Below are positions 47,961 through 62,362 of a stretch of DNA of 64,000 nucleotides, in pieces. The notes beneath the pieces are model-generated. The model searched no databases. It had not been told where the DNA came from and saw only the letters and a list, made by a program, of their open reading frames with translations. Where the stretch lies: the NCBI RefSeq assembly GCF_000765475.1, contig NZ_JRHO01000010.1:62001-126000 (forward strand). Reading direction: 5' to 3'. Position 1 is the stretch's first letter, and each line of letters starts with the position of its first letter. Source of the DNA: Methanococcoides methylutens (lineage in GTDB: Archaea; Halobacteriota; Methanosarcinia; Methanosarcinales; Methanosarcinaceae). Both the position numbers and the translations under genes were made by a program.

Positions 47961-49736
47961 ATGGCTGTAAAGGATGACTTAAGGACCCCTATCGTATGTG
48001 TAATGGGGCATGTGGATCACGGAAAGACCTCACTGCTCGATAACATCCGCGGAAGTGCGGTTGTGTCCGGAGAGGCTGGTGCTATTACCCAGCATATCGG
48101 TGCAACCGAGGTTCCTATAGGATCCATTGTGGAGAAATGTGGAAATCCCGGTTTACTGGACCAGTTTGTTGTTCCAGGTCTTTTGTTCATTGATACTCCC
48201 GGGCATCATGCTTTTACGACCCTTAGGAGTCGTGGCGGAGCTCTTGCGGACCTTGCTGTTGTTATAGTGGATATTAATGAGGGTTTCAAGCCCCAGACCA
48301 TTGAAAGCCTGCATATATTGAAGCAGCACAAAACTCCTTTTGTAGTGGTTGCCAATAAGATCGACAAGATACACGGCTGGAATCCACAAAAGGATTCTCC
48401 TTTCATGGCATCCTACAACAAGCAAAGCGAGCATGTGAGGACCAGTCTGGACAACAAGTTCTATGAGGTTATCGGTGAGCTTTATAATCATGGATTCAGC
48501 TCGGACCGATACGATCGGGTGGCCGATTTCCAGCATAATATTGGTGTCATACCTATCAGTGCTATCACCGGGGAAGGAATACCTGACCTCTTGATGGTGC
48601 TTCTGGGACTGGCACAGAGATTTCTGGAATCCAACCTCCATTACGATGCAACTGGTCCGGGTGTCGGAACCGTGCTTGAAGTAAAGGAAGAACGCGGTCT
48701 TGGAACCACTGTTGATCTTATACTTTATGACGGAACGCTGAAAAAAGGCGATACTATCGTAGTTGGAAGCCTGGATGAGCCTATACAGACAAAAGTGCGT
48801 GCGGTGCTGAAACCTCGTGTCCTTTCCGAGATCAATGTGGAGGACAAGTTCAAACAGGTCAGCAAAGTAACAGCCGCTATAGGTGTAAAGATCTCAGCTC
48901 CTAATCTTGATGGAGCCCTTTCAGGCGGGTCTGTGAGAGTAGCAACTCCTGAGACCCTTGAGACGGTTGTTGAGGAAGTTCGCAGTGAGGTTGAGGATGT
49001 TCAGATCGATACTGACCAGAGCGGTATAGCCATCAAAGCAGATACTATCGGATCTCTTGAAGCTCTCGTAAATGAGTTGAAGAAAGAAGATATTCCTATT
49101 CGCAAAGCAGATGTGGGTGATATCTCCAACAGGGATATTGTGGAAGTTTCAGCTATTGAAGACCCATTCCACTCTGTGATAGTTGGATTTAATGTTAATA
49201 TTCTTCCTGATGCAAAGGAGAAGTTACAATCTACAAATGTCAAACTGTTCATGAACGATGTCATCTATCGTCTTATTGACGATTATAAGGACTGGGTGAA
49301 AGAGCAGCGTGCACTTTCTGAGAAAACGATCTCCGAGACCATCATCAAGCCCGGAATGTTCACTATCATGCCTGATTGTACATTCAGGCAGAGCAAACCG
49401 GCTGTTGTAGGTGTAAGGGTCATTGGCGGTGTTGTAAAGACCAAGGTAGATGTAACCAATGAAGATGGCATTGTTGTTGGTACTATAAAAGGCCTGCAAT
49501 CCAGAGGGGAGAATGTTGGCGAAGCACGTATTGGGATGGAAGTTGCTATGAGTCTCGAAGGCCCAACAGTGGGGCGACAGATACACGAAGGCGACGTCCT
49601 GCATGCTAATATACCTGAAAGACATGCCAAGATCCTTGAGCATGAACTTTACGATTCACTTTCGGCGGACGAATTAGACGCAATGGATGCATTTCTTGAG
49701 ATCAAAAGAAGGGGCAACCCCTTCTGGGCGAAATAA
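47961..49736 (+). CDS. infB: Translation initiation factor IF-2 / aIF5B
   Basis: A 591-residue GTPase that helps join ribosomal subunits. G motifs: G1 GHVDHGKTSLLD, G3 DTPGHHAFTTLRSRGG, G4 NKID. It then has the usual IF2 domains II-IV (GPGVGTVLEVKEERGLGTTV, and IIKPGMFTIMPDCTFRQSKP). The short N terminus is typical of the archaeal factor. SD AAAGGGAG is ahead of the ATG. rps6e follows 84 bp downstream. Confidence 0.96.
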   Translation: MAVKDDLRTPIVCVMGHVDHGKTSLLDNIRGSAVVSGEAGAITQHIGATEVPIGSIVEKCGNPGLLDQFVVPGLLFIDTPGHHAFTTLRSRGGALADLAVVIVDINEGFKPQTIESLHILKQHKTPFVVVANKIDKIHGWNPQKDSPFMASYNKQSEHVRTSLDNKFYEVIGELYNHGFSSDRYDRVADFQHNIGVIPISAITGEGIPDLLMVLLGLAQRFLESNLHYDATGPGVGTVLEVKEERGLGTTVDLILYDGTLKKGDTIVVGSLDEPIQTKVRAVLKPRVLSEINVEDKFKQVSKVTAAIGVKISAPNLDGALSGGSVRVATPETLETVVEEVRSEVEDVQIDTDQSGIAIKADTIGSLEALVNELKKEDIPIRKADVGDISNRDIVEVSAIEDPFHSVIVGFNVNILPDAKEKLQSTNVKLFMNDVIYRLIDDYKDWVKEQRALSEKTISETIIKPGMFTIMPDCTFRQSKPAVVGVRVIGGVVKTKVDVTNEDGIVVGTIKGLQSRGENVGEARIGMEVAMSLEGPTVGRQIHEGDVLHANIPERHAKILEHELYDSLSADELDAMDAFLEIKRRGNPFWAK

Positions 49737-49820
49737 ATATAATATATATGTCTGTTAGACATATACCAGATCAAATTAATTAAACAATAGATAAATATTA
49801 CTAATATTTGGAGGCAAATC

Positions 49821-50228
49821 ATGGCAGATTTTAAAGTTGTAGTTTCAGATCCAAAAACCAAGACCTACCAGTTCGATATCACTGGTGCTGAATCAAACCA
49901 GTTCATCGGTAAGGCTATTGGCCAGACCGTAGATGGTTCAACAGTAGGTCTGGATGGATACACCCTGACAATCACAGGCGGTACTGATGACAGTGGTTTC
50001 GTAATGAGCCCTGACCTTCCTGGTTCTAAGAGACAGAAGGTCCTTGTTGCAAGAGGCGTCGGTTACACGCCAAAAGCAAGAGGTGTACGCCGCCGAAAGT
50101 TCCTTCGTGGAAGGGAAGTCGCAACCGATATTACCCAGATCAACACAAAGGTTACTGCATACGGTGACAAGACCATTGAGGACATCCTCGGTGGCGGTGC
50201 AGAAGCTGAAGCACCTGCAGAAGAGTGA
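49821..50228 (+). CDS. rps6e: Ribosomal protein eS6
   Basis: A 135-residue small-subunit protein ([20 protein letters not shown]) with [39 protein letters not shown] and [14 protein letters not shown]. The end is acidic and Ala-rich. SD GGAGG precedes the ATG. A terminator hairpin overlaps its stop. Confidence 0.95.
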
Positions 50229-50412: not shown

Positions 50413-51705
50413 TTATTTTGATCTTGTATATTTTGGTGTGCCCAGCCCAACATCGATGAGCACTTTCTTCTTGACAAGACCATCTATGAATTTTTTAGCC
50501 CCGGTCAAGTTAAGCCCGGAATATTCCATAACCTCGCCGAGGTCAAAGTATTCTTCCTCTTCAATGAGTTGATCCACGATCTCTGTCAATTTGGTCCGGG
50601 TTCCATTTGAGGAATGCCAGAATGCGAATTTCCGATTATTTTCATCAGTTTCATTGTATATAAGATCGTCTTCCACTAGATCGTATAGGAAAAATCCCAG
50701 TCTCTGATGTGAATATGTCCTTGCCCAATCCTTTATACTTTGATCCCAGGAACTGTTGATAAAACACAGGCTCATATACTGGTTTTGTTCGATGGTATTT
50801 GCTTTTGCCTGTATCATCTCGATGATTTCTCTCTTGTCGTCTATGGATTTCCAATAATTGTCTACGATAAGCATTGGAGTTTTGAACCTGCCTTCTTTTA
50901 TGGAACCACGGACACTTCTTTTTGAAAGTTCGACCTTCCATTGCTTGTCTGCGATATATTCTCCATTATAAGATACCTCAGGATGTTGTTTCTCAAATTT
51001 TTGCTCCAGGGTATTAATGTAACGGTAGAGTTTTGAAAGGGTTTCAGTATCAAGTTCACTTTTTTTAGCAGGGGCCTGTATGTCATACCGGGCTGATGTT
51101 TCATCTTCAATATCATCAGCTGGATTGGTCTTGGTTTCGGAGGGGAATGTTTCAGATGTCTCAGACATTTCGATTTTGTCTTCTGCAGGGGCTTTTTCCT
51201 CAGCTTCCTTCTGGTCCTGCTCTCTTAGTTCCTTTTCCTGCCTTTCCCTTTCCTCTCTTTGAGCTTGCTTTTTACTTACGATCCTGTTCTCATATTCGCT
51301 CAGGTTCTTGCTTGTAAGTTCGATCCTGTGGCTAAATCCCATCTCTATTTTATCCACAAGGTCACTGATGGTAAAAACATCGATACTCTCGCCGGTAGCA
51401 AGTGCATTCTCCACTTCCTGAAGCAGCATCCTAGATGTTTCTACGAATCTTTCTTCATTCTCGTAGAAATCATCAATATTGCCTTCGTGACTTCCGAAGG
51501 AGTCAAGTTCTTTCTTTTCAGCTTCTGATACTAGTCCTGTTATTCTTGTCCGAAGCTGTCGAAGTTGTGATGTCGCGGCTGAATCCTTTTGTTGATAGGT
51601 CTTCTGGATCAGTTTTTCTATACGTGAATGCGTGCTCTTCAAGAGTTCATGCACTTTTTTCCTGTTCTCTTCCTGCAATGTTGTGGGATGGGATTCCAGA
51701 TCCAT
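50413..51705 (-). CDS. Coiled-coil and winged-helix protein of the ESCRT-like cluster
   Basis: A 430-residue cytoplasmic protein of no family I can name. The N-terminal ~130 residues are helical with coiled-coil character (EENRKKVHELLKSTHSRIEK). A Glu/Lys-rich stretch with QREERERQEKELREQ leads to a long acidic linker. The last ~70 residues look like a winged helix (EYFDLGEVMEYSGLNLTGAK and KFIDGLVKKKVLIDVGLGTP). The ATG at 51705 is used because of GAGTGA a few bases upstream; a GTG at 51714 is possible. It follows the MIT-AAA gene by about 20 bp. It may act as a bridge to the ATPase, as winged-helix proteins do in ESCRT systems, but this is speculation. Confidence 0.6.
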   Translation of the reverse strand: MDLESHPTTLQEENRKKVHELLKSTHSRIEKLIQKTYQQKDSAATSQLRQLRTRITGLVSEAEKKELDSFGSHEGNIDDFYENEERFVETSRMLLQEVENALATGESIDVFTISDLVDKIEMGFSHRIELTSKNLSEYENRIVSKKQAQREERERQEKELREQDQKEAEEKAPAEDKIEMSETSETFPSETKTNPADDIEDETSARYDIQAPAKKSELDTETLSKLYRYINTLEQKFEKQHPEVSYNGEYIADKQWKVELSKRSVRGSIKEGRFKTPMLIVDNYWKSIDDKREIIEMIQAKANTIEQNQYMSLCFINSSWDQSIKDWARTYSHQRLGFFLYDLVEDDLIYNETDENNRKFAFWHSSNGTRTKLTEIVDQLIEEEEYFDLGEVMEYSGLNLTGAKKFIDGLVKKKVLIDVGLGTPKYTRSK

Positions 51706-51723
51706 ATCGTTCACTCTCTGTTA

Positions 51724-52872
51724 TCAGTGGAATAGCTCGCTAAAGACTTCCTCTTCGCCGCTCTTCTTTATTTCACGCTGTGCTTCGGAATACCAGCTAG
51801 TGATGGACGGTTTCCTTTGCTCAAGTACTTTGATGAAATCATTCATCTTTATCTTCCGGGGCTCTGCACCACGAAGTGCCTCTCCAAGAGGAATGTCAGC
51901 AGCTTCTTTGCAGATTGCTGAAATGTCTGCTCCGGAATATGATCCGGTCATCTCTGCAAGTTTATCGACATTAACATCATTATCGATCGGCCTTTTTTTA
52001 AGGTTAAGTTTAAAAATAGCGATCCTTGCAGGAAGGTCAGGTTCCGGTACGAATACAAGTTTACTGAAACGTCCCGGTCTGCGAAGTGCGGGGTCAATGG
52101 CCCATGGTTCGTTGGTAGCTGAAAGAACAAGCAGGTTGTCATCGGCTGTATCCACTCCATCCATCTGGGCAAGCAGTTCGTTGACCACCCTTTTGGCATA
52201 GTCTTCTGCTTCGCTTCTTCTGCCTGCAATAGAATCGATCTCGTCAAAAAAGATGATCGCTTTCTCACATTCCCTGGCAGTGTCAAAGACTTTTTTTATG
52301 TTCTTCTCGGAAGCACCTACCCACTTGCTTACAATACTACTGGTCTTTACACTGATGAAGTCAGCACCGCACTCCTTTGCAGCTGCCTTTGCCATCATTG
52401 TCTTTCCACAACCAGGAGGTCCGTGCAGTAGTATTCCTTCACCGGCCTTCTGTCCGTACATCTGGTATAGTTCCTTGTGGGTGAATGGGTATATGATGGC
52501 TTTTCTGATATCCTCTTTCACAGTCTCAAGGCCTCCGATATCCGAAAATCCGATATCAGGCTTTTCTGTCATTATCAGGTCATCTTTTGATAATGATGAT
52601 TCGTCGGTATCCTCTTTTGTTCCTGTGCCTGAGCCAGAATATTGGACGCCTGAACTTTTGAATGACTGCGCCTTTGCAAAAAGATGTTCTGCAAGGTCAT
52701 GTTGTGTATTCTTGTCGATTTTGTCAGTTGAGAGCTTTGAAGCTTCATTGTAGAGCTTTGCAGACTTGAGATAAAGTTCCCTTGCTCTCTCTTTTTCATT
52801 CTCTTCTTCCAATGTCTTAGCAGCTTTTGCATAACCCCTTGCCTGTGCTGCCAGTGAACTTGCAGATCCCAG
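51724..52872 (-). CDS. Vps4/CdvC-like AAA ATPase with an N-terminal MIT-like domain
   Basis: A 382-residue protein. Residues ~1-75 are three helices resembling an MIT domain (ARGYAKAAKTLEEENEKER, ARELYLKSAKLYNEASKL, HDLAEHLFAKAQSFKSSG). A Ser/Gly/Thr-rich linker leads to one AAA domain with Walker A GPPGCGKT (~151-158), pore loop SKWVGASEK, Walker B FFDEIDSI (~208-215) and the Arg-finger block ALRRPGRF. The pore loop nearly matches that of Vps4 (SKWMGESEK). It has one AAA domain, unlike CDC48. The track-style start TTG (52812) would cut the first MIT helix; GGAGGTG lies five bases before an in-frame CTG at 52870-52872, which I use. Confidence 0.78.
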   Translation of the reverse strand: MGSASSLAAQARGYAKAAKTLEEENEKERARELYLKSAKLYNEASKLSTDKIDKNTQHDLAEHLFAKAQSFKSSGVQYSGSGTGTKEDTDESSLSKDDLIMTEKPDIGFSDIGGLETVKEDIRKAIIYPFTHKELYQMYGQKAGEGILLHGPPGCGKTMMAKAAAKECGADFISVKTSSIVSKWVGASEKNIKKVFDTARECEKAIIFFDEIDSIAGRRSEAEDYAKRVVNELLAQMDGVDTADDNLLVLSATNEPWAIDPALRRPGRFSKLVFVPEPDLPARIAIFKLNLKKRPIDNDVNVDKLAEMTGSYSGADISAICKEAADIPLGEALRGAEPRKIKMNDFIKVLEQRKPSITSWYSEAQREIKKSGEEEVFSELFH

Positions 52873-52917
52873 ATTTGCACCTCCAAAGTATCTGTAGGTC
52901 AGTATGATCCTGCTGGA

Positions 52918-53487
52918 TCATTCTGACTCGGCCATTTCTGATTTGATCTTCTTTGATAGTTCATCTTTGGATGATGTGTCAGTGCTAAGTTCTGCCAGTA
53001 ACTCAGACCTGAGTGAATCCTGTATTTCGCTGAGTTCTGAACCTCCGTTCATAGCGGCATCCATTGAAGAAGTCATCATACTGGTGGCGGTGTTCACTTT
53101 TTCCATGGATGTACGAATATTGGTGACCGCTCCCTCAAGCTTTGATGTATCAAAACCAAGTTCTTTTTGCCATTTTCCGAGGTTATCTCCTATTTCAACT
53201 ACTTCTTTTAGTCCGGTCTGCATTTCGATAACGTCGGTCATGGACTGTGCCATCTCTACCATGCTGCCGATGGTATTCACCTGTCCATCGACCATCGAAT
53301 ATCTGCGGGAGGCTACCCTAAACTCTCTGTCGTTACCTTCCGAAAGAGCTTCTTTGGCCTTTGCACGAGCTGCTTCTCTCTTTTTGCCAAGTTCTTTTTC
53401 TCGTGCTGTTAGTCTCTGTTCAGACATTGATAACTTTGTTTTCAGTTCTTCAGGTGATACTTTCTTGAATGGATTGGTGAATCCCAT
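52918..53487 (-). CDS. ESCRT-III/Snf7-like coiled-coil protein
   Basis: A 189-residue, all-helical protein. Residues 11-65 are strongly basic and coiled-coil (SEQRLTAREKELGKKREAAR), then helices with VNTIGSMVEMAQSMTDVIEM and KLEGAVTNIRTSMEKVNTAT, and an acidic C-terminal part (SELLAELSTD, KDELSKKIKSEMAES). This basic-then-acidic helical plan is that of ESCRT-III proteins, and LSKKIKSEM may be an MIT-binding helix. The next gene encodes an MIT-AAA ATPase, which strengthens the call. No membrane helix. AGGAGG lies seven bases before the ATG, which shares its T with the regulator's stop. Confidence 0.68.
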   Translation of the reverse strand: MGFTNPFKKVSPEELKTKLSMSEQRLTAREKELGKKREAARAKAKEALSEGNDREFRVASRRYSMVDGQVNTIGSMVEMAQSMTDVIEMQTGLKEVVEIGDNLGKWQKELGFDTSKLEGAVTNIRTSMEKVNTATSMMTSSMDAAMNGGSELSEIQDSLRSELLAELSTDTSSKDELSKKIKSEMAESE

Positions 53488-53642: not shown

Positions 53643-53671
53643 TTTATTTCCTCTCATTCTATTTTATTGAT

Positions 53672-53686
53672 GTTATATATATATTA
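53672..53686 (-). promoter_or_regulatory. TATA box of the RHH/ESCRT-like operon
   Basis: On the minus strand AATATATATATAAC lies 30-44 bp before the RHH start at 53642, giving a short leader. It is the strongest TATA-like string on that strand in the divergent spacer. Confidence 0.6.
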
Positions 53687-53704
53687 TTTTGTGCAGTTGA
53701 CCTG

Positions 53705-53739
53705 TTTTTATTGATATGTCTCTTATTGCTCAATAAAAA
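53705..53739. promoter_or_regulatory. Perfect inverted repeat in the divergent promoter (probable operator)
   Basis: TTTTTATTGA (53705-53714) and TCAATAAAAA (53730-53739) are perfect 10-bp arms with a 15-bp spacer, placed upstream of both TATA boxes. Ribbon-helix-helix proteins bind such symmetric sites. It should be the site of the regulator encoded at 53487-53642. Confidence 0.55.
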
Positions 53740-53779
53740 ATCAGCTCTGGTGTATGCCCATGTATACAATAGAAAACAT

Positions 53780-53790
53780 TATATATAATA
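53780..53790 (+). promoter_or_regulatory. TATA box of the SPFH gene
   Basis: TATATATAATA lies about 55-65 bp before the SPFH start at 53844, so transcription would start near 53810. Confidence 0.55.
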
Positions 53791-53843
53791 TTTGTTCAAT
53801 GTTAATCTATAGCATATTGCCGGATGATGGAGGTATTGGAACT

Positions 53844-55130
53844 ATGGTGTTCAAATGGAAGAAGGATCTTGATGATATTGCACGTGTTATCCCTAAGAAG
53901 AATGTAAAAGGTTTCTTCAGCAAGTCAATTACGCTCTCACCTAATGAGAAAGCTGTTATGATTAAGAATGGTGTAGTTGAAGACATCATCGACAGTGGGA
54001 AAATGAGAGTTGGTGGCCTGCTAAAACCAGGGAACTTACGCAAAGATGTGGATATTGCTCTGATCGATACCTCTTTTAAGGAGCTGAGGTGGGAAGTTCC
54101 CGGCCTGTGGACCCGTGATGATCAGGAAGTTGGATGTGGGGGCATACTGAGATTTACGATTAATGATCCAAAAAAGTTCTTCAGCATGATATTTTCCTAT
54201 ACGGTTGCGGAGAAGAACGGGGAAAGGAATCTCTCAATATTCGATATCTACGATCGCCTTGAGAGTGAAACGATAACCCGTGTCCTTGAACCGGAAGTGC
54301 ATGGTGAGGACATTGAATCTCTTTATGGTAATCGTGATCTTCAGCTGAGGATGGAAAATGAGCTTGAAATGCAGCTTAAGGATACTCTTTTGCTATGGGG
54401 TATCGAGCTTGTAAAATACACTTGTGAGTGGGACTTTGGCAACTATGGTGTTGTGAGAAAGGAACGCAGTGGATTTCAGGTTAAAGAGGAGCTCAAGGAA
54501 ATGTCTACCCTTGAAAGGGAAGGCGATCTGGACCGTGACAGCCGGATAAATGTTGCTTCAACAAGAGCTGGCTTTGCGGAAGAAACAGTGAGTGCAGCTC
54601 ATTACAGGACAGAGGAAGAGAAAGATACTCTTCACAGGTCCAGGATCTCGCAGATCGAGAATCAGGCCGATGCTGCTGAAGCTAAACAGGCGATCGAAAC
54701 CTTTTCTTCATGGAGGGAAGCAAAGACCGGAGCCCGAAGGGTTGATTTGGAACTTGATGAGGACATGAACGACCGCAAACATGCCCGGGACATGGAATAC
54801 ATGGGCAATGTCATGGAAAAGGGTGGTTCAGATGTTGCTACCGTCATTGCACAGGGCAGGGAGTTCCAGAACATGTCTCCTGAACAGCTAGAGGCCCTTG
54901 CCAAAATGAAAGAGGCTGAGAGCATTGCAAAAGAGGACAAGGTCCGGTTCATGATGGATGTTGAAGACCGCGAACGTGAGGATTCATATCGCAGAAAGGA
55001 ACTGGATGCTGAAATTATGGGTGCAGCACAGACCCGCAGGGCACCGGGTGTTAAAAAATGCCCTGGTTGTGGCAGTACAGTCCCTGCAGAAGCACATTTC
55101 TGTGGTCAATGCGGTACAAAGCTTGATTAA
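53844..55130 (+). CDS. SPFH (band 7)-domain protein with C-terminal zinc ribbon
   Basis: A 428-residue protein. The SPFH-like domain covers about 20-210: FFSKSITLSPNEKAVMIKNG, GLWTRDDQEVGCGGILRFTI and LLWGIELVKYTCEWDFGNYG. A long charged helical region follows, rich in Glu, Arg and Ala (MKEAESIAKEDKVRFMMDVE). The end is a zinc ribbon, CPGCGSTVPAEAHFCGQCG. SPFH proteins form cages or scaffolds at membranes. The ATG at 53844 follows GGAGGT; an earlier ATG (53754) overlaps the TATA box. It diverges from the ESCRT-like operon and sits before the PEGA protein. Confidence 0.75.
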   Translation: MVFKWKKDLDDIARVIPKKNVKGFFSKSITLSPNEKAVMIKNGVVEDIIDSGKMRVGGLLKPGNLRKDVDIALIDTSFKELRWEVPGLWTRDDQEVGCGGILRFTINDPKKFFSMIFSYTVAEKNGERNLSIFDIYDRLESETITRVLEPEVHGEDIESLYGNRDLQLRMENELEMQLKDTLLLWGIELVKYTCEWDFGNYGVVRKERSGFQVKEELKEMSTLEREGDLDRDSRINVASTRAGFAEETVSAAHYRTEEEKDTLHRSRISQIENQADAAEAKQAIETFSSWREAKTGARRVDLELDEDMNDRKHARDMEYMGNVMEKGGSDVATVIAQGREFQNMSPEQLEALAKMKEAESIAKEDKVRFMMDVEDREREDSYRRKELDAEIMGAAQTRRAPGVKKCPGCGSTVPAEAHFCGQCGTKLD

Positions 55131-55270: not shown

Positions 55271-57067
55271 TTGATAGAAAAACACGTGAAAATACTGATA
55301 TTATTATCCTTTTTAGTCCTGTCATTATCCGCTGTTGGCAGTGCTTCGTCAACTCTGGACTATGGTGTTGTATTCTCAGAGGGTGATTCCTTCTGGTTGG
55401 AGGAAGGGTATGTTCTCAACATAATCGATATTGATCCATACAACAACTATGCGCAGATGTCTGTGACATGGAATGGCTATGAGGTCCAGAATGCCATCTA
55501 CTATGAGGGGGACTATTTCTATTACGACGACGGTCTTATTTCCCTAGAATTTGAGGTATTGGACATATATTCGGATTCATATGTTGACTATATGGATATT
55601 GACGGTCTTTATATATTCTATAAGGACTTCCCTCAGGGTGCCATAGTGCTCTATTCCATCCCGTCGGGATATGATGTATATCTCGATGGTTATTATCAGG
55701 TTACAAGTGATGGATATACCTTGATACAGTTAAATTATCTGGAACCTGGTTATCATGCAGTAACACTGGAATCTTCAGGATATGAGGGTATGGAAGGCAG
55801 TTTCTATGTCTCATCAGGTGAGGTCCAGTACTATTCTGTCTCTGACTTTAGCAGGTCTTCATCTACTGATACTGATAGAATAGATCCCACATTGTATGAC
55901 GATTACGATGATAGTAGCAATGGTGCTAATGGGGCCGGCGTCCTTTTTCTTATTCTGGCCTTCATCTTTGTGGTGCTATTTTTAAGAGGCATCATTAAGG
56001 CACGAAGGCGGAACAAGAAGTCCAAAATATCCGGAACCGGTGGTTCTAGAGTTACTCCATCCGAAAAGAAAGATCGTTACACGAAGATCGCCAGTAAGCC
56101 TGAGCCTGTTCCGGGGGAAGTTATTGAAACCAAAAAAGCTTCATCCATGCCAATGGGAGCAAGTGTCGGAAAAGCACCATCTTTGCCTTTGAAGGAAAGT
56201 AGTTCTATTGTGGTAAAATCTGCGTTCTATTACCGTGGTGCTGTTCTTCAGTATAAAGTAAAGGTCGAGAACCATACTTCTGAGCCGATAGGTGATATCA
56301 GAGTTAATCTTTTCGTACCTGATGTTTTCCTGCTAAAAGAGGCTGAGAAAACTATCTCTATGCTTGAACTCGGTGAAGGTAAGACAGTTACATTTGAGGT
56401 CCGTCCTACTGGTGAATGTGGTGATTGTAAGATCTCCGCAGGCATTGATTACTACGATTATAACACAAAGAAGCGTAGCCATGTTGATCTTGAAGGCAAG
56501 ATGGTAAGCGTAGTGTGTCCGGTGCTTCATGTAAGCAAGATCGATGAACCTTCCTGGAGGTCGGTGGTTACTACCCTGATCTCGGCAGAAGAGGATTCCA
56601 AAGATCTTGAGATCCCCGCAGAGAACCTGTTCGATATTTCTACAAGGGTGCTCAAAGACATGAACATGTACATGATCGAGCCGGAGATAACGTCAACACC
56701 AAGTCTTTTTACGGGTGTTGCAAGGTTCTATGCTGAAGGTGTCAGCGGTCTGAAATATGCTTCCTACGTTGAAGTTGTGGGCAAGCGCAGATCACGTCTT
56801 ATACTGAGGGCCTGGGCTGAAAAAGAAGATGCACTTACCGGTTTCTATCATAAGATGTTGGAAGAGATCGAAAAGAGGACTGACATCAAACTTTTCGTTG
56901 ATGAGGGGTCCATGCAATACAACATAAGAACTACAAATATCACTGACAGCCTCATCCAGCGTTCTACTATCGGTTCGGAGGCAGAGGTCAGAAAGTGTCC
57001 AAATTGTGGAAAAGAAGTAAAGGATAATGCAAAGTTCTGTGAAGAATGTGGGGAAAGGCTGGACTGA
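55271..57067 (+). CDS. Signal peptide, PEGA-like domain, membrane helix and zinc-ribbon protein
   Basis: A 598-residue protein. An N-terminal signal (ILILLSFLVLSLSAVGSASS), then an outside domain of ~95 residues rich in Tyr and Asp, a PEGA-type domain (AIVLYSIPSGYDVYLDGYYQ, LNYLEPGYHAVTLESSGYEG), a transmembrane helix near 222-245 (GVLFLILAFIFVVLFLRGI), and a long inside part. It ends with the zinc ribbon CPNCGKEVKDNAKFCEECG, the same type as the SPFH protein's, which suggests they share a partner. It starts from TTG at 55271 after AGGTG. It follows the SPFH gene by 140 bp. Confidence 0.72.
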   Translation: MIEKHVKILILLSFLVLSLSAVGSASSTLDYGVVFSEGDSFWLEEGYVLNIIDIDPYNNYAQMSVTWNGYEVQNAIYYEGDYFYYDDGLISLEFEVLDIYSDSYVDYMDIDGLYIFYKDFPQGAIVLYSIPSGYDVYLDGYYQVTSDGYTLIQLNYLEPGYHAVTLESSGYEGMEGSFYVSSGEVQYYSVSDFSRSSSTDTDRIDPTLYDDYDDSSNGANGAGVLFLILAFIFVVLFLRGIIKARRRNKKSKISGTGGSRVTPSEKKDRYTKIASKPEPVPGEVIETKKASSMPMGASVGKAPSLPLKESSSIVVKSAFYYRGAVLQYKVKVENHTSEPIGDIRVNLFVPDVFLLKEAEKTISMLELGEGKTVTFEVRPTGECGDCKISAGIDYYDYNTKKRSHVDLEGKMVSVVCPVLHVSKIDEPSWRSVVTTLISAEEDSKDLEIPAENLFDISTRVLKDMNMYMIEPEITSTPSLFTGVARFYAEGVSGLKYASYVEVVGKRRSRLILRAWAEKEDALTGFYHKMLEEIEKRTDIKLFVDEGSMQYNIRTTNITDSLIQRSTIGSEAEVRKCPNCGKEVKDNAKFCEECGERLD

Positions 57068-60310: not shown

Positions 60311-62362
60311 ATGAAGAACGAACTTGGAATGGATGTTCCCCCTTTTGTATGCAAAAAAGCAGAAGAAAAGAGATGCCATCAGGGAGTTAAGTACGTTTAT
60401 TTGGATGGAAATTACGGTGGTGAGCTTCCAGTATCAAGTATTGGTGGCAAGAAGGCTACACGCTTTAATAAAATTGATATTGCAAATGCAAATAAAGTTC
60501 ATCTGGGGGCTGGCTGGGTTGCATTTACATCCCCCTTAGATGCTGATCTAAATATTCCTCTGGATGGAATCAGCAAACAGATCATAAAACCTGATACGAG
60601 TTCTCAATCTACTTCTTCGCTTTCCCCTTTTAATAACACTGAATTGCATTCTATGTTACCTCTGGGATTGAAAGCTACAGATTTTGAAATCAAACTGCAT
60701 GAAGCAACAAGGATGTGGAGGGAAAATGAAGAGAAAAAGAGAAAACAAAATGCAGGGGATGAATTGCTGAATGAGTTGGATGGGTCAGAGATACCGGGTC
60801 TTGAAGATGAATTGCTGAATGAGTTGGATGGGGCAGAAATACCGGGTCTTGAAGATGAATTGCTGAATGAGTTAGATGGAGCAGAAGTACCGAGTCTTGA
60901 AGATGAATTGCTGAATGAGTTGGATGGGGCAGAAATACCGGTTCTTGAAGATGAATTGCTGAAAGAGTTGGATGGGACAGAAATACCAAGTCTTGAAGAT
61001 GAATTGCTGAATGAGTTGGATGGAGCAGAAATACCGGGTCTTGAAGACGAATTGCTGAATGAGTTGGATGGGGCAGAAATACCGAGTCTTGAAGATGAAT
61101 TGCTGAATGAGTTGGATGGAGCAGAAATACCGAGTCTTGAAGATGAATTGCTGAATGAGTTGGATGGGGCAGGAATACCGAGCCTTGAAGATGAAGTGCT
61201 GAAAGAGTGCGATGGTACAGAAAGAAAGCAGCTTGAAGAAGGAAATTCTCATAAAGAGCAGGCTAAAACTTCAAAAAAAGAGCCTGAATTCGATAAATTG
61301 AGCAAAATTCATGTTAATTCCGCAAAGAGTCCGTTTTCAGACTCCCAATTCCATAAAGTGCAGGGGGGACCATCAAAAAAGCGGCTTTCCGATGGTCGGT
61401 TACGGAAGGAACAGGAAAATACAAAGAGAAAGCATAAGGATGTTGTGAACCCTCATAAATCGATGAAAGTTACTCTGGTTAAATGGTTATCTATCATAAT
61501 AGCAACCTGGCTTGTTGTTAGTTTCATTGTCATTCCTCTTATTGATGATTCGGAAGCAGTTCCCTCTCAATATCTGGAAGCCTTAGGCAAGAATTCAATT
61601 GTTATTGCATCTGAAAATAGTAATGATGATATTTTCAAAGATGAAGAAGTCATGAGTTCGCAGGAAATTCCTGAGAACTATATCAATTCCATTGGTATGA
61701 AGTTTGTACTGATTCATGATGGTGAGTTCATGATGGGTTCTCCTGATGATGAAGAAGGCAGGTACTACTATAGGGAGGGGCCTGTCCATGAAGTAATGAT
61801 CGGAAATGATTACTATCTTGGCAAATACGAAGTTACCCAAAAGCAATGGGCTATGGTTATGGGCAATAATCCTTCTTATGTTGTAGGAAATAATCGGCCT
61901 GTTGAAGGAATTTCGTGGGATGATGCACAGGAATTTGTAAAAAAACTGAATTCACTGGAAGGCACGGATAAATATCGTCTTCCATCCGAAGCAGAGTGGG
62001 AATATGCCTGCAGGGCAGGCACAAACACCAAATATTACTTTGGGGACGATGAAGCTGATTTGCATAAGTATGCATGGTATGGAGAAGATATTTATTCAGT
62101 AGGGCATCTGAATCCCAATAGCTGGGGCCTTTATGATATGCATGGCAATGTCTATGAATTTGTTCAGGATGAATGGCATTCTGGCTATGAAGGTGCTCCG
62201 AAGGTTGGAACTGCCTGGGATGAGGGTATTTCTGATATCCGAACCCTGAGAAGTGGCAGTGTGAATGCAGATCCAAGTACCTGTCGTTCTGCCAGTCGTA
62301 CATCTATCGAGGCTGATATTAGTTTAAACAATGTAGGATTCCGCCTTGTAATGGATGTTTGA
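60311..62362 (+). CDS. Formylglycine-generating-enzyme-like protein with ten 16-residue acidic repeats
   Basis: A 683-residue protein with a soluble N-terminal ~145 residues, then ten units of 16 residues (DELLNELDGAEIPGLE type) at about 150-309, coded by a 48-bp DNA repeat. A charged linker is followed by a transmembrane helix (LSIIIATWLVVSFIVIPLI) near 395-415. The rest, probably outside, is an FGE-sulfatase (SUMF1-like) domain: GMKFVLIHDGEFMMGSPDDE, YEVTQKQWAMVMGNNPSY, YRLPSEAEWEYACRAGTN, GLYDMHGNVYEFVQDEW. It may be a non-catalytic binding fold. No chaperone partner is seen. Confidence 0.8.
   Translation: MKNELGMDVPPFVCKKAEEKRCHQGVKYVYLDGNYGGELPVSSIGGKKATRFNKIDIANANKVHLGAGWVAFTSPLDADLNIPLDGISKQIIKPDTSSQSTSSLSPFNNTELHSMLPLGLKATDFEIKLHEATRMWRENEEKKRKQNAGDELLNELDGSEIPGLEDELLNELDGAEIPGLEDELLNELDGAEVPSLEDELLNELDGAEIPVLEDELLKELDGTEIPSLEDELLNELDGAEIPGLEDELLNELDGAEIPSLEDELLNELDGAEIPSLEDELLNELDGAGIPSLEDEVLKECDGTERKQLEEGNSHKEQAKTSKKEPEFDKLSKIHVNSAKSPFSDSQFHKVQGGPSKKRLSDGRLRKEQENTKRKHKDVVNPHKSMKVTLVKWLSIIIATWLVVSFIVIPLIDDSEAVPSQYLEALGKNSIVIASENSNDDIFKDEEVMSSQEIPENYINSIGMKFVLIHDGEFMMGSPDDEEGRYYYREGPVHEVMIGNDYYLGKYEVTQKQWAMVMGNNPSYVVGNNRPVEGISWDDAQEFVKKLNSLEGTDKYRLPSEAEWEYACRAGTNTKYYFGDDEADLHKYAWYGEDIYSVGHLNPNSWGLYDMHGNVYEFVQDEWHSGYEGAPKVGTAWDEGISDIRTLRSGSVNADPSTCRSASRTSIEADISLNNVGFRLVMDV
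60758..61237 (+). repeat. 48-bp in-frame repeat, ten copies
   Basis: Ten head-to-tail units of 48 bp inside the FGE-like gene. Inner copies are almost identical; the fifth and the last differ most. The last unit (DEVLKECDGTERKQLE) is degenerate. Confidence 0.95.

Follow-up and report, generated by a model that had tools for sequence, protein, structure and literature searches.

Which DNA does the small ribbon-helix-helix (RHH) protein at the head of an ESCRT gene cluster in Methanococcoides methylutens recognise in the divergent promoter beside its gene? A sequence-only reading of this region had placed the site in a perfect inverted repeat lying between two divergent TATA boxes, and had proposed that the protein represses both transcription units from there. 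We examined this proposal in the 64,000-nucleotide stretch of DNA analysed here (the window), and across orthologous loci. The genes concerned are the following:

50413–51714, minus strand: 433-aa protein with no family match, last in the leftward unit
51724–52890, minus strand: Vps4/CdvC-like AAA ATPase
52918–53487, minus strand: ESCRT-III/Snf7-like protein, 189 aa
53487–53642, minus strand: 51-aa RHH-type regulator, its stop codon overlapping the next start (TAATG)
53844–55130, plus strand: SPFH/Band 7 protein with a C-terminal zinc ribbon
55271–57067, plus strand: 598-aa PEGA/zinc-ribbon protein, probably the adaptin-appendage component

The 51-residue protein is classed as an RHH-type regulator from its profile matches and motif pattern. 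Among 24 orthologues, RHH_1 matched 10 (best 9.9e-4) and RelB 12 (best 0.003), with a marginal match for the window member itself (0.045). The RHH fold is dimeric, with an N-terminal strand and two helices in each chain; a monomer model contained two helices (residues 7–24 and 31–50) and no strand, and a fold search of the PDB with this model gave no significant match and retrieved no RHH structure. A histone-fold reading (similarity to NF-YB, E 0.03–0.06) was rejected as weaker than RHH, since RHH_1 or RelB match about half of the orthologues and 51 residues are short for a histone fold. The TAATG at 53487, in which the RHH stop overlaps the ESCRT-III start, suggests coupled translation of the two proteins. 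Six RHH orthologues from two other families (L015, L016, L065, L066 (g21), L011 (g23), L061 (g19)) seemingly have no ATG, GTG or TTG start, their first aligned codon being ATC or ATA after a good Shine-Dalgarno sequence; such a non-canonical start may keep the regulator scarce.

For the neighbouring genes, the Snf7 profile matched 11 of 12 orthologues of the ESCRT-III-like protein weakly (best 2.7e-4, the window member falling below the curated cut-off), and its top fold matches were CdvB, Asgard ESCRT-III and CHMP1B (best E 0.03, probability 1.0). The CdvC model aligned with residues 11–365 of the ATPase at 1.3e-74, below the model's cut-off, and no separate MIT match appeared among the families shown. 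The SPFH protein matched Band_7 (3.4e-5) and Zn_Ribbon_1 (1e-5), both above cut-offs. On these assignments the gene set, compared through its ESCRT-III, Vps4/CdvC-like, SPFH and PEGA/zinc-ribbon members, fits the published Meth_adaptin ESCRT system, which combines MIT-Vps4, ESCRT-III, an SPFH protein with coiled coil and zinc ribbon and a zinc-ribbon adaptin-appendage protein, and also lists two adaptin-appendage proteins, one with a GOLD domain, and ProX (PMC10936438). Further along the window, 60311–62362 encodes a protein of 683 aa in which ELLNELDGAEIPxLED is repeated in tandem about nine times; the part after these repeats resembles, by eye, formylglycine-generating enzymes.

A search of 186 genomes of the order recovered the RHH protein from 36 of them, spread over 12 genera and three families, with Methanococcoides, Methanolobus, Methanomethylovorans and Methanoperedenaceae among the positive groups; no match occurred outside the order in the 393 genomes of the phylum that were searched. 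RHH and ESCRT-III genes occur together and adjacent in 36 of 37 genomes. The sole exception, G109 (L126), holds an ESCRT-III remnant with neither RHH gene nor operator, and is a decayed copy of the module. Wherever examined, the SPFH gene diverges from the RHH gene; among the first 60 genomes, 16 gave a strong SPFH match, and these are precisely the 16 that carry RHH. Genes resembling infB and that of ribosomal protein S6e adjoin the module both in Methanococcoides (window 47961–50228) and in Methanolobus (L127), and this conserved neighbourhood suggests old vertical descent with repeated loss. A mobile origin was considered and rejected, as no plasmid, phage or viral-contig relatives were found.

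The inverted repeat is real and lies exactly where it had been placed. Its arms, TTTTTATTGA (53705–53714) and TCAATAAAAA (53730–53739), match exactly across 15 nt; its centre (about 53722) falls close to position 53731 or so, midway between two TATA-like runs at 53674–53684 and 53780–53788; and the first gene to its left (53642–53487, minus strand) does encode the 51-aa RHH-like protein. An extra copy of the arm, TTTTATTGAT, is present at 53662–53671. Its proposed role is another matter. The search of orthologous promoters that the sequence-only reading had itself put forward as a check found the palindrome missing from all four sister Methanococcoides loci and from the 31 loci of other genera, every one of which keeps the RHH gene. 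This is the outcome which that reading had named as its refutation, and on conservation the repeat was rejected as the operator. Within these Methanococcoides species the RHH protein is 94–98% identical, so its DNA site should not differ between them. The spacer that holds the repeat is 72% AT, and arms of at least 10 arose in 9, 15 and 37 per 1000 dinucleotide shuffles for loops of up to 15, 30 and 60 nt, that is, in 1–4% of shuffles; the repeat is mildly unusual at best for a single spacer and unremarkable for a 64-kb scan. Binding of the RHH protein to TTTTTATTGA/TCAATAAAAA is therefore very improbable, even with the RHH gene beside such exact arms, and the aligned loci place the repeat in a spacer added in Methanococcoides, outside the operator. 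What survives of the proposal is a small RHH-type protein as the obligate neighbour of a divergent promoter, with some palindrome at that promoter very probably serving as its operator; the repeat as the protein's site and the left-hand TATA box, private to the window species, do not. The Methanococcoides spacer (window 53643–53757 and the four sister loci) also contains an inverted repeat of the form GNNGAT...ATCNNC, with two compensatory pairs among the five species; it may be an RNA hairpin and is statistically weak.

The conserved DNA lies to the right of this spacer. The elements of the intergenic region are, from left to right:

53674–53684, minus strand: TATA-like run near the RHH gene, confined to the window species; an optional additional promoter for the leftward unit
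53705–53739: the inverted repeat flagged earlier, 10-bp arms and 15-nt loop, species-specific
53752–53757: GTATGC, partly conserved, at a distance of one helical turn (10 bp) from GTATAC and perhaps a second half-site
53755–53759, minus strand: predicted start site for leftward (RHH/ESCRT-III) transcription, placed at about 53757, which is the near-universal C of position -3
53759–53770: candidate RHH operator, a palindrome with consensus ATTGTATACAAT; window form CATGTATACAAT, core TGTATACA at 53761–53768
53772–53777, plus strand: BRE (GAAAAC) of the rightward SPFH promoter
53780–53788: palindromic TATA box TATATATAA, proposed for both operons
53790–53795, minus strand: leftward-promoter BRE, reading ACAAAT on this strand
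53808–53812, plus strand: predicted start of the rightward (SPFH) transcript

A block TGTATACAATRGAAAACNNTATATATAA (window 53761–53788) is nearly invariant in 34 of the 36 orthologous divergent loci. The anchored alignment of all 36 carries almost full information at positions 2 to 17 and 20 to 28, has a sharp left edge, and yields two palindromic centres unprompted: GTATAC and the TATA box. The conserved block is composed of the palindrome, a BRE and the palindromic TATA box, with a second, opposite-facing BRE beyond. The ATTGTATACAAT palindrome lies about 40 bp to the right of the flagged repeat, fused to the BRE and TATA box of the SPFH promoter; in the window species one of its flanks is imperfect. 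Many Methanococcoides and Methanolobus loci also share a GTAT placed one helical turn further left, and this element, GTATGC in the window, may be a second half-site. The palindrome is the likely operator of the RHH protein. The two exceptions, G149 and G151, belong to one genus and have the RHH gene and the TATA box, but TTTAATACTTTG replaces the palindrome. A different palindrome occurs further left in both, CATTTGTCACAAATG in G151 (L063) and the same with one mismatch in G149 (L064), downstream of the predicted RHH transcript start; it is possibly a relocated operator.

Genome-wide, the pattern WTGTATACAATRGAAAAC, with at most one mismatch, occurs a single time in each of 34 of the 36 genomes that carry RHH. 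The 150 genomes without RHH gave four matches, each with a mismatch, and reversed-pattern controls gave a few. Inspection of the matches in G084, G021 and G134, which have no RHH gene, revealed no comparable promoter or module, and two exact copies of the decamer TTGTATACAA at other places in the genome of the window species were rejected as extra targets, both lying within reading frames. As the promoter belongs to the module, its co-occurrence with the RHH gene is partly circular. The single site per genome nevertheless favours a dedicated local regulator over a global factor.

The same alignment points to one promoter serving both directions. BRE-like hexamers flank the TATA box on either side (mean 5.1 and 5.4 of 6 by direction, versus 3.8 in shuffled flanks), and the AA pair of the leftward BRE (53792–53793; TT at +32/+33) is invariant in 36 of 36 loci. 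Outside Methanococcoides, the RHH start codon lies 20–44 nt past the palindrome and the predicted transcript start; a Shine-Dalgarno-like sequence is usually present, and in these genera no other TATA box fits in the leader. Such a short leader leaves no room for one, and both operons must then use the right-hand TATA box. The RHH gene of Methanococcoides lies 84–115 nt away, with a strong nearby TATA-like run in the window species only; there, this second run could act as an RHH-gene promoter. The two opposite starts are predicted to be about 53 bp apart. In Methanolobus psychrophilus, starts lie 19–22 nt from the promoter element (PMC5378194), while BRE-TATA-BRE promoters of Pyrococcus furiosus fire both ways in vitro from starts 49–50 bp apart (PMC6640164); both match the geometry predicted here.

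The previous observations lead to the hypothesis of a compact two-way promoter with one operator, at which a dimer of the RHH protein represses its own operon. Mechanistically, the palindromic TATA box, with a BRE on each side, would direct transcription leftward into the RHH/ESCRT-III/Vps4 operon and rightward into the SPFH and zinc-ribbon genes. The dimer would recognise ATTGTATACAAT and, bound in the interval that separates the TATA box from the predicted RHH start, would block RNA polymerase in the leftward direction, so that the RHH/ESCRT-III operon would be negatively autoregulated. Towards the SPFH genes, ATTGTATACAAT ends just outside the BRE, and the dimer would touch only the upstream edge of that promoter, so rightward transcription might be tolerated, with no competitor left for the TATA box, or might be dampened via TFB. 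Conservation, geometry, co-occurrence and the single site per genome support this model, to which we assign a probability of roughly 0.6. Its likeliest part is autorepression, suggested by the geometry, while the effect on the SPFH genes may be release, activation or co-repression. More broadly, a tiny DNA-binding protein probably controls an ESCRT membrane-remodelling cluster in methane-making and related archaea. A bolder version, which we put forward as speculative and rather doubtful, is a direction switch, in which the protein would stop the ESCRT-III/Vps4 half and hand the TATA box to the SPFH/adaptor half; if true, the ratio of filament to membrane-scaffold components would be set by a 51-residue protein.

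Two other readings accept the palindrome and differ in what happens there. Another host factor, such as a general activator, might bind ATTGTATACAAT while the RHH protein acts elsewhere: the site is just upstream of a BRE, as is typical of archaeal activators, and conservation alone does not give the identity of the binder. A general factor should, however, have several sites per genome, whereas the extended element has one and the additional TTGTATACAA decamers both fall inside reading frames, which makes this reading unlikely. The RHH protein might instead activate the SPFH operon from ATTGTATACAAT and leave its own operon unrepressed. The palindrome is some 40–50 bp upstream of the predicted SPFH start, and CdrS sites lie 41–110 nt upstream of starts and are thought to be activating there (PMC8406309). 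Read on the other strand, though, the palindrome takes up the interval from the TATA box to the RHH start, the classical position of a repressor, and we give activation without autorepression only about a one-in-five standing.

The remaining alternative concerns the Methanococcoides spacer, flagged repeat included, which might fold into an RNA hairpin if the RHH leader is long. A 6-bp stem occupies the same place in all five species (one pair being broken in the window species), two pairs are compensatory, and the G008 sequence folds with z = -3.8. Yet only five sequences are involved, 45 shuffles in 500 score as high for covariation, z lies between -0.8 and -1.6 in the other four species, and the hairpin is absent outside the genus. 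We regard it as improbable. The two-way promoter with autorepression through ATTGTATACAAT remains our preferred reading, and the locus offers a dedicated regulator gene and a control element conserved base by base, so that it is directly testable.

No description of the regulation of euryarchaeal ESCRT systems was found in the literature searched, and the main text of the Meth_adaptin report mentions neither the RHH gene nor its promoter (PMC10936438). The promoter resembles the P. furiosus BRE-TATA-BRE arrangement in having one near-symmetric TATA box, BREs on both sides and starts about 50 bp apart; in that species the reverse transcript is taken to be antisense noise (PMC6640164), whereas here mRNA is proposed in both directions, with a palindromic candidate operator on one side. 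If true, this would be a natural archaeal BRE-TATA-BRE promoter that is functional and regulated both ways.

The closest working parallels, by analogy, are CdrS/FtsZ2 and aCcr1/CdvA. CdrS of haloarchaea (cdrS-ftsZ2) is likewise a very small RHH regulator encoded directly upstream of a cytoskeletal or membrane-constriction gene, with probable co-transcription and a symmetric DNA motif; its partner is FtsZ2, it is widespread, and Haloferax contains 18 of its sites (PMC7439475, PMC8406309), whereas the RHH protein described here pairs with ESCRT-III, is confined to some Methanosarcinales and has one site. aCcr1 is an RHH cell-cycle repressor of Saccharolobus that controls the ESCRT-linked gene cdvA (PMC7617429), and the two systems share a small archaeal RHH protein and an ESCRT-linked gene. 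aCcr1 represses cell-cycle genes at several places, whereas the site proposed here occurs once per genome and the regulator is encoded inside the ESCRT operon. If our reading is true, this would be the third case of small-RHH control of archaeal membrane-constriction machinery, after CdrS/FtsZ2 and aCcr1/CdvA.
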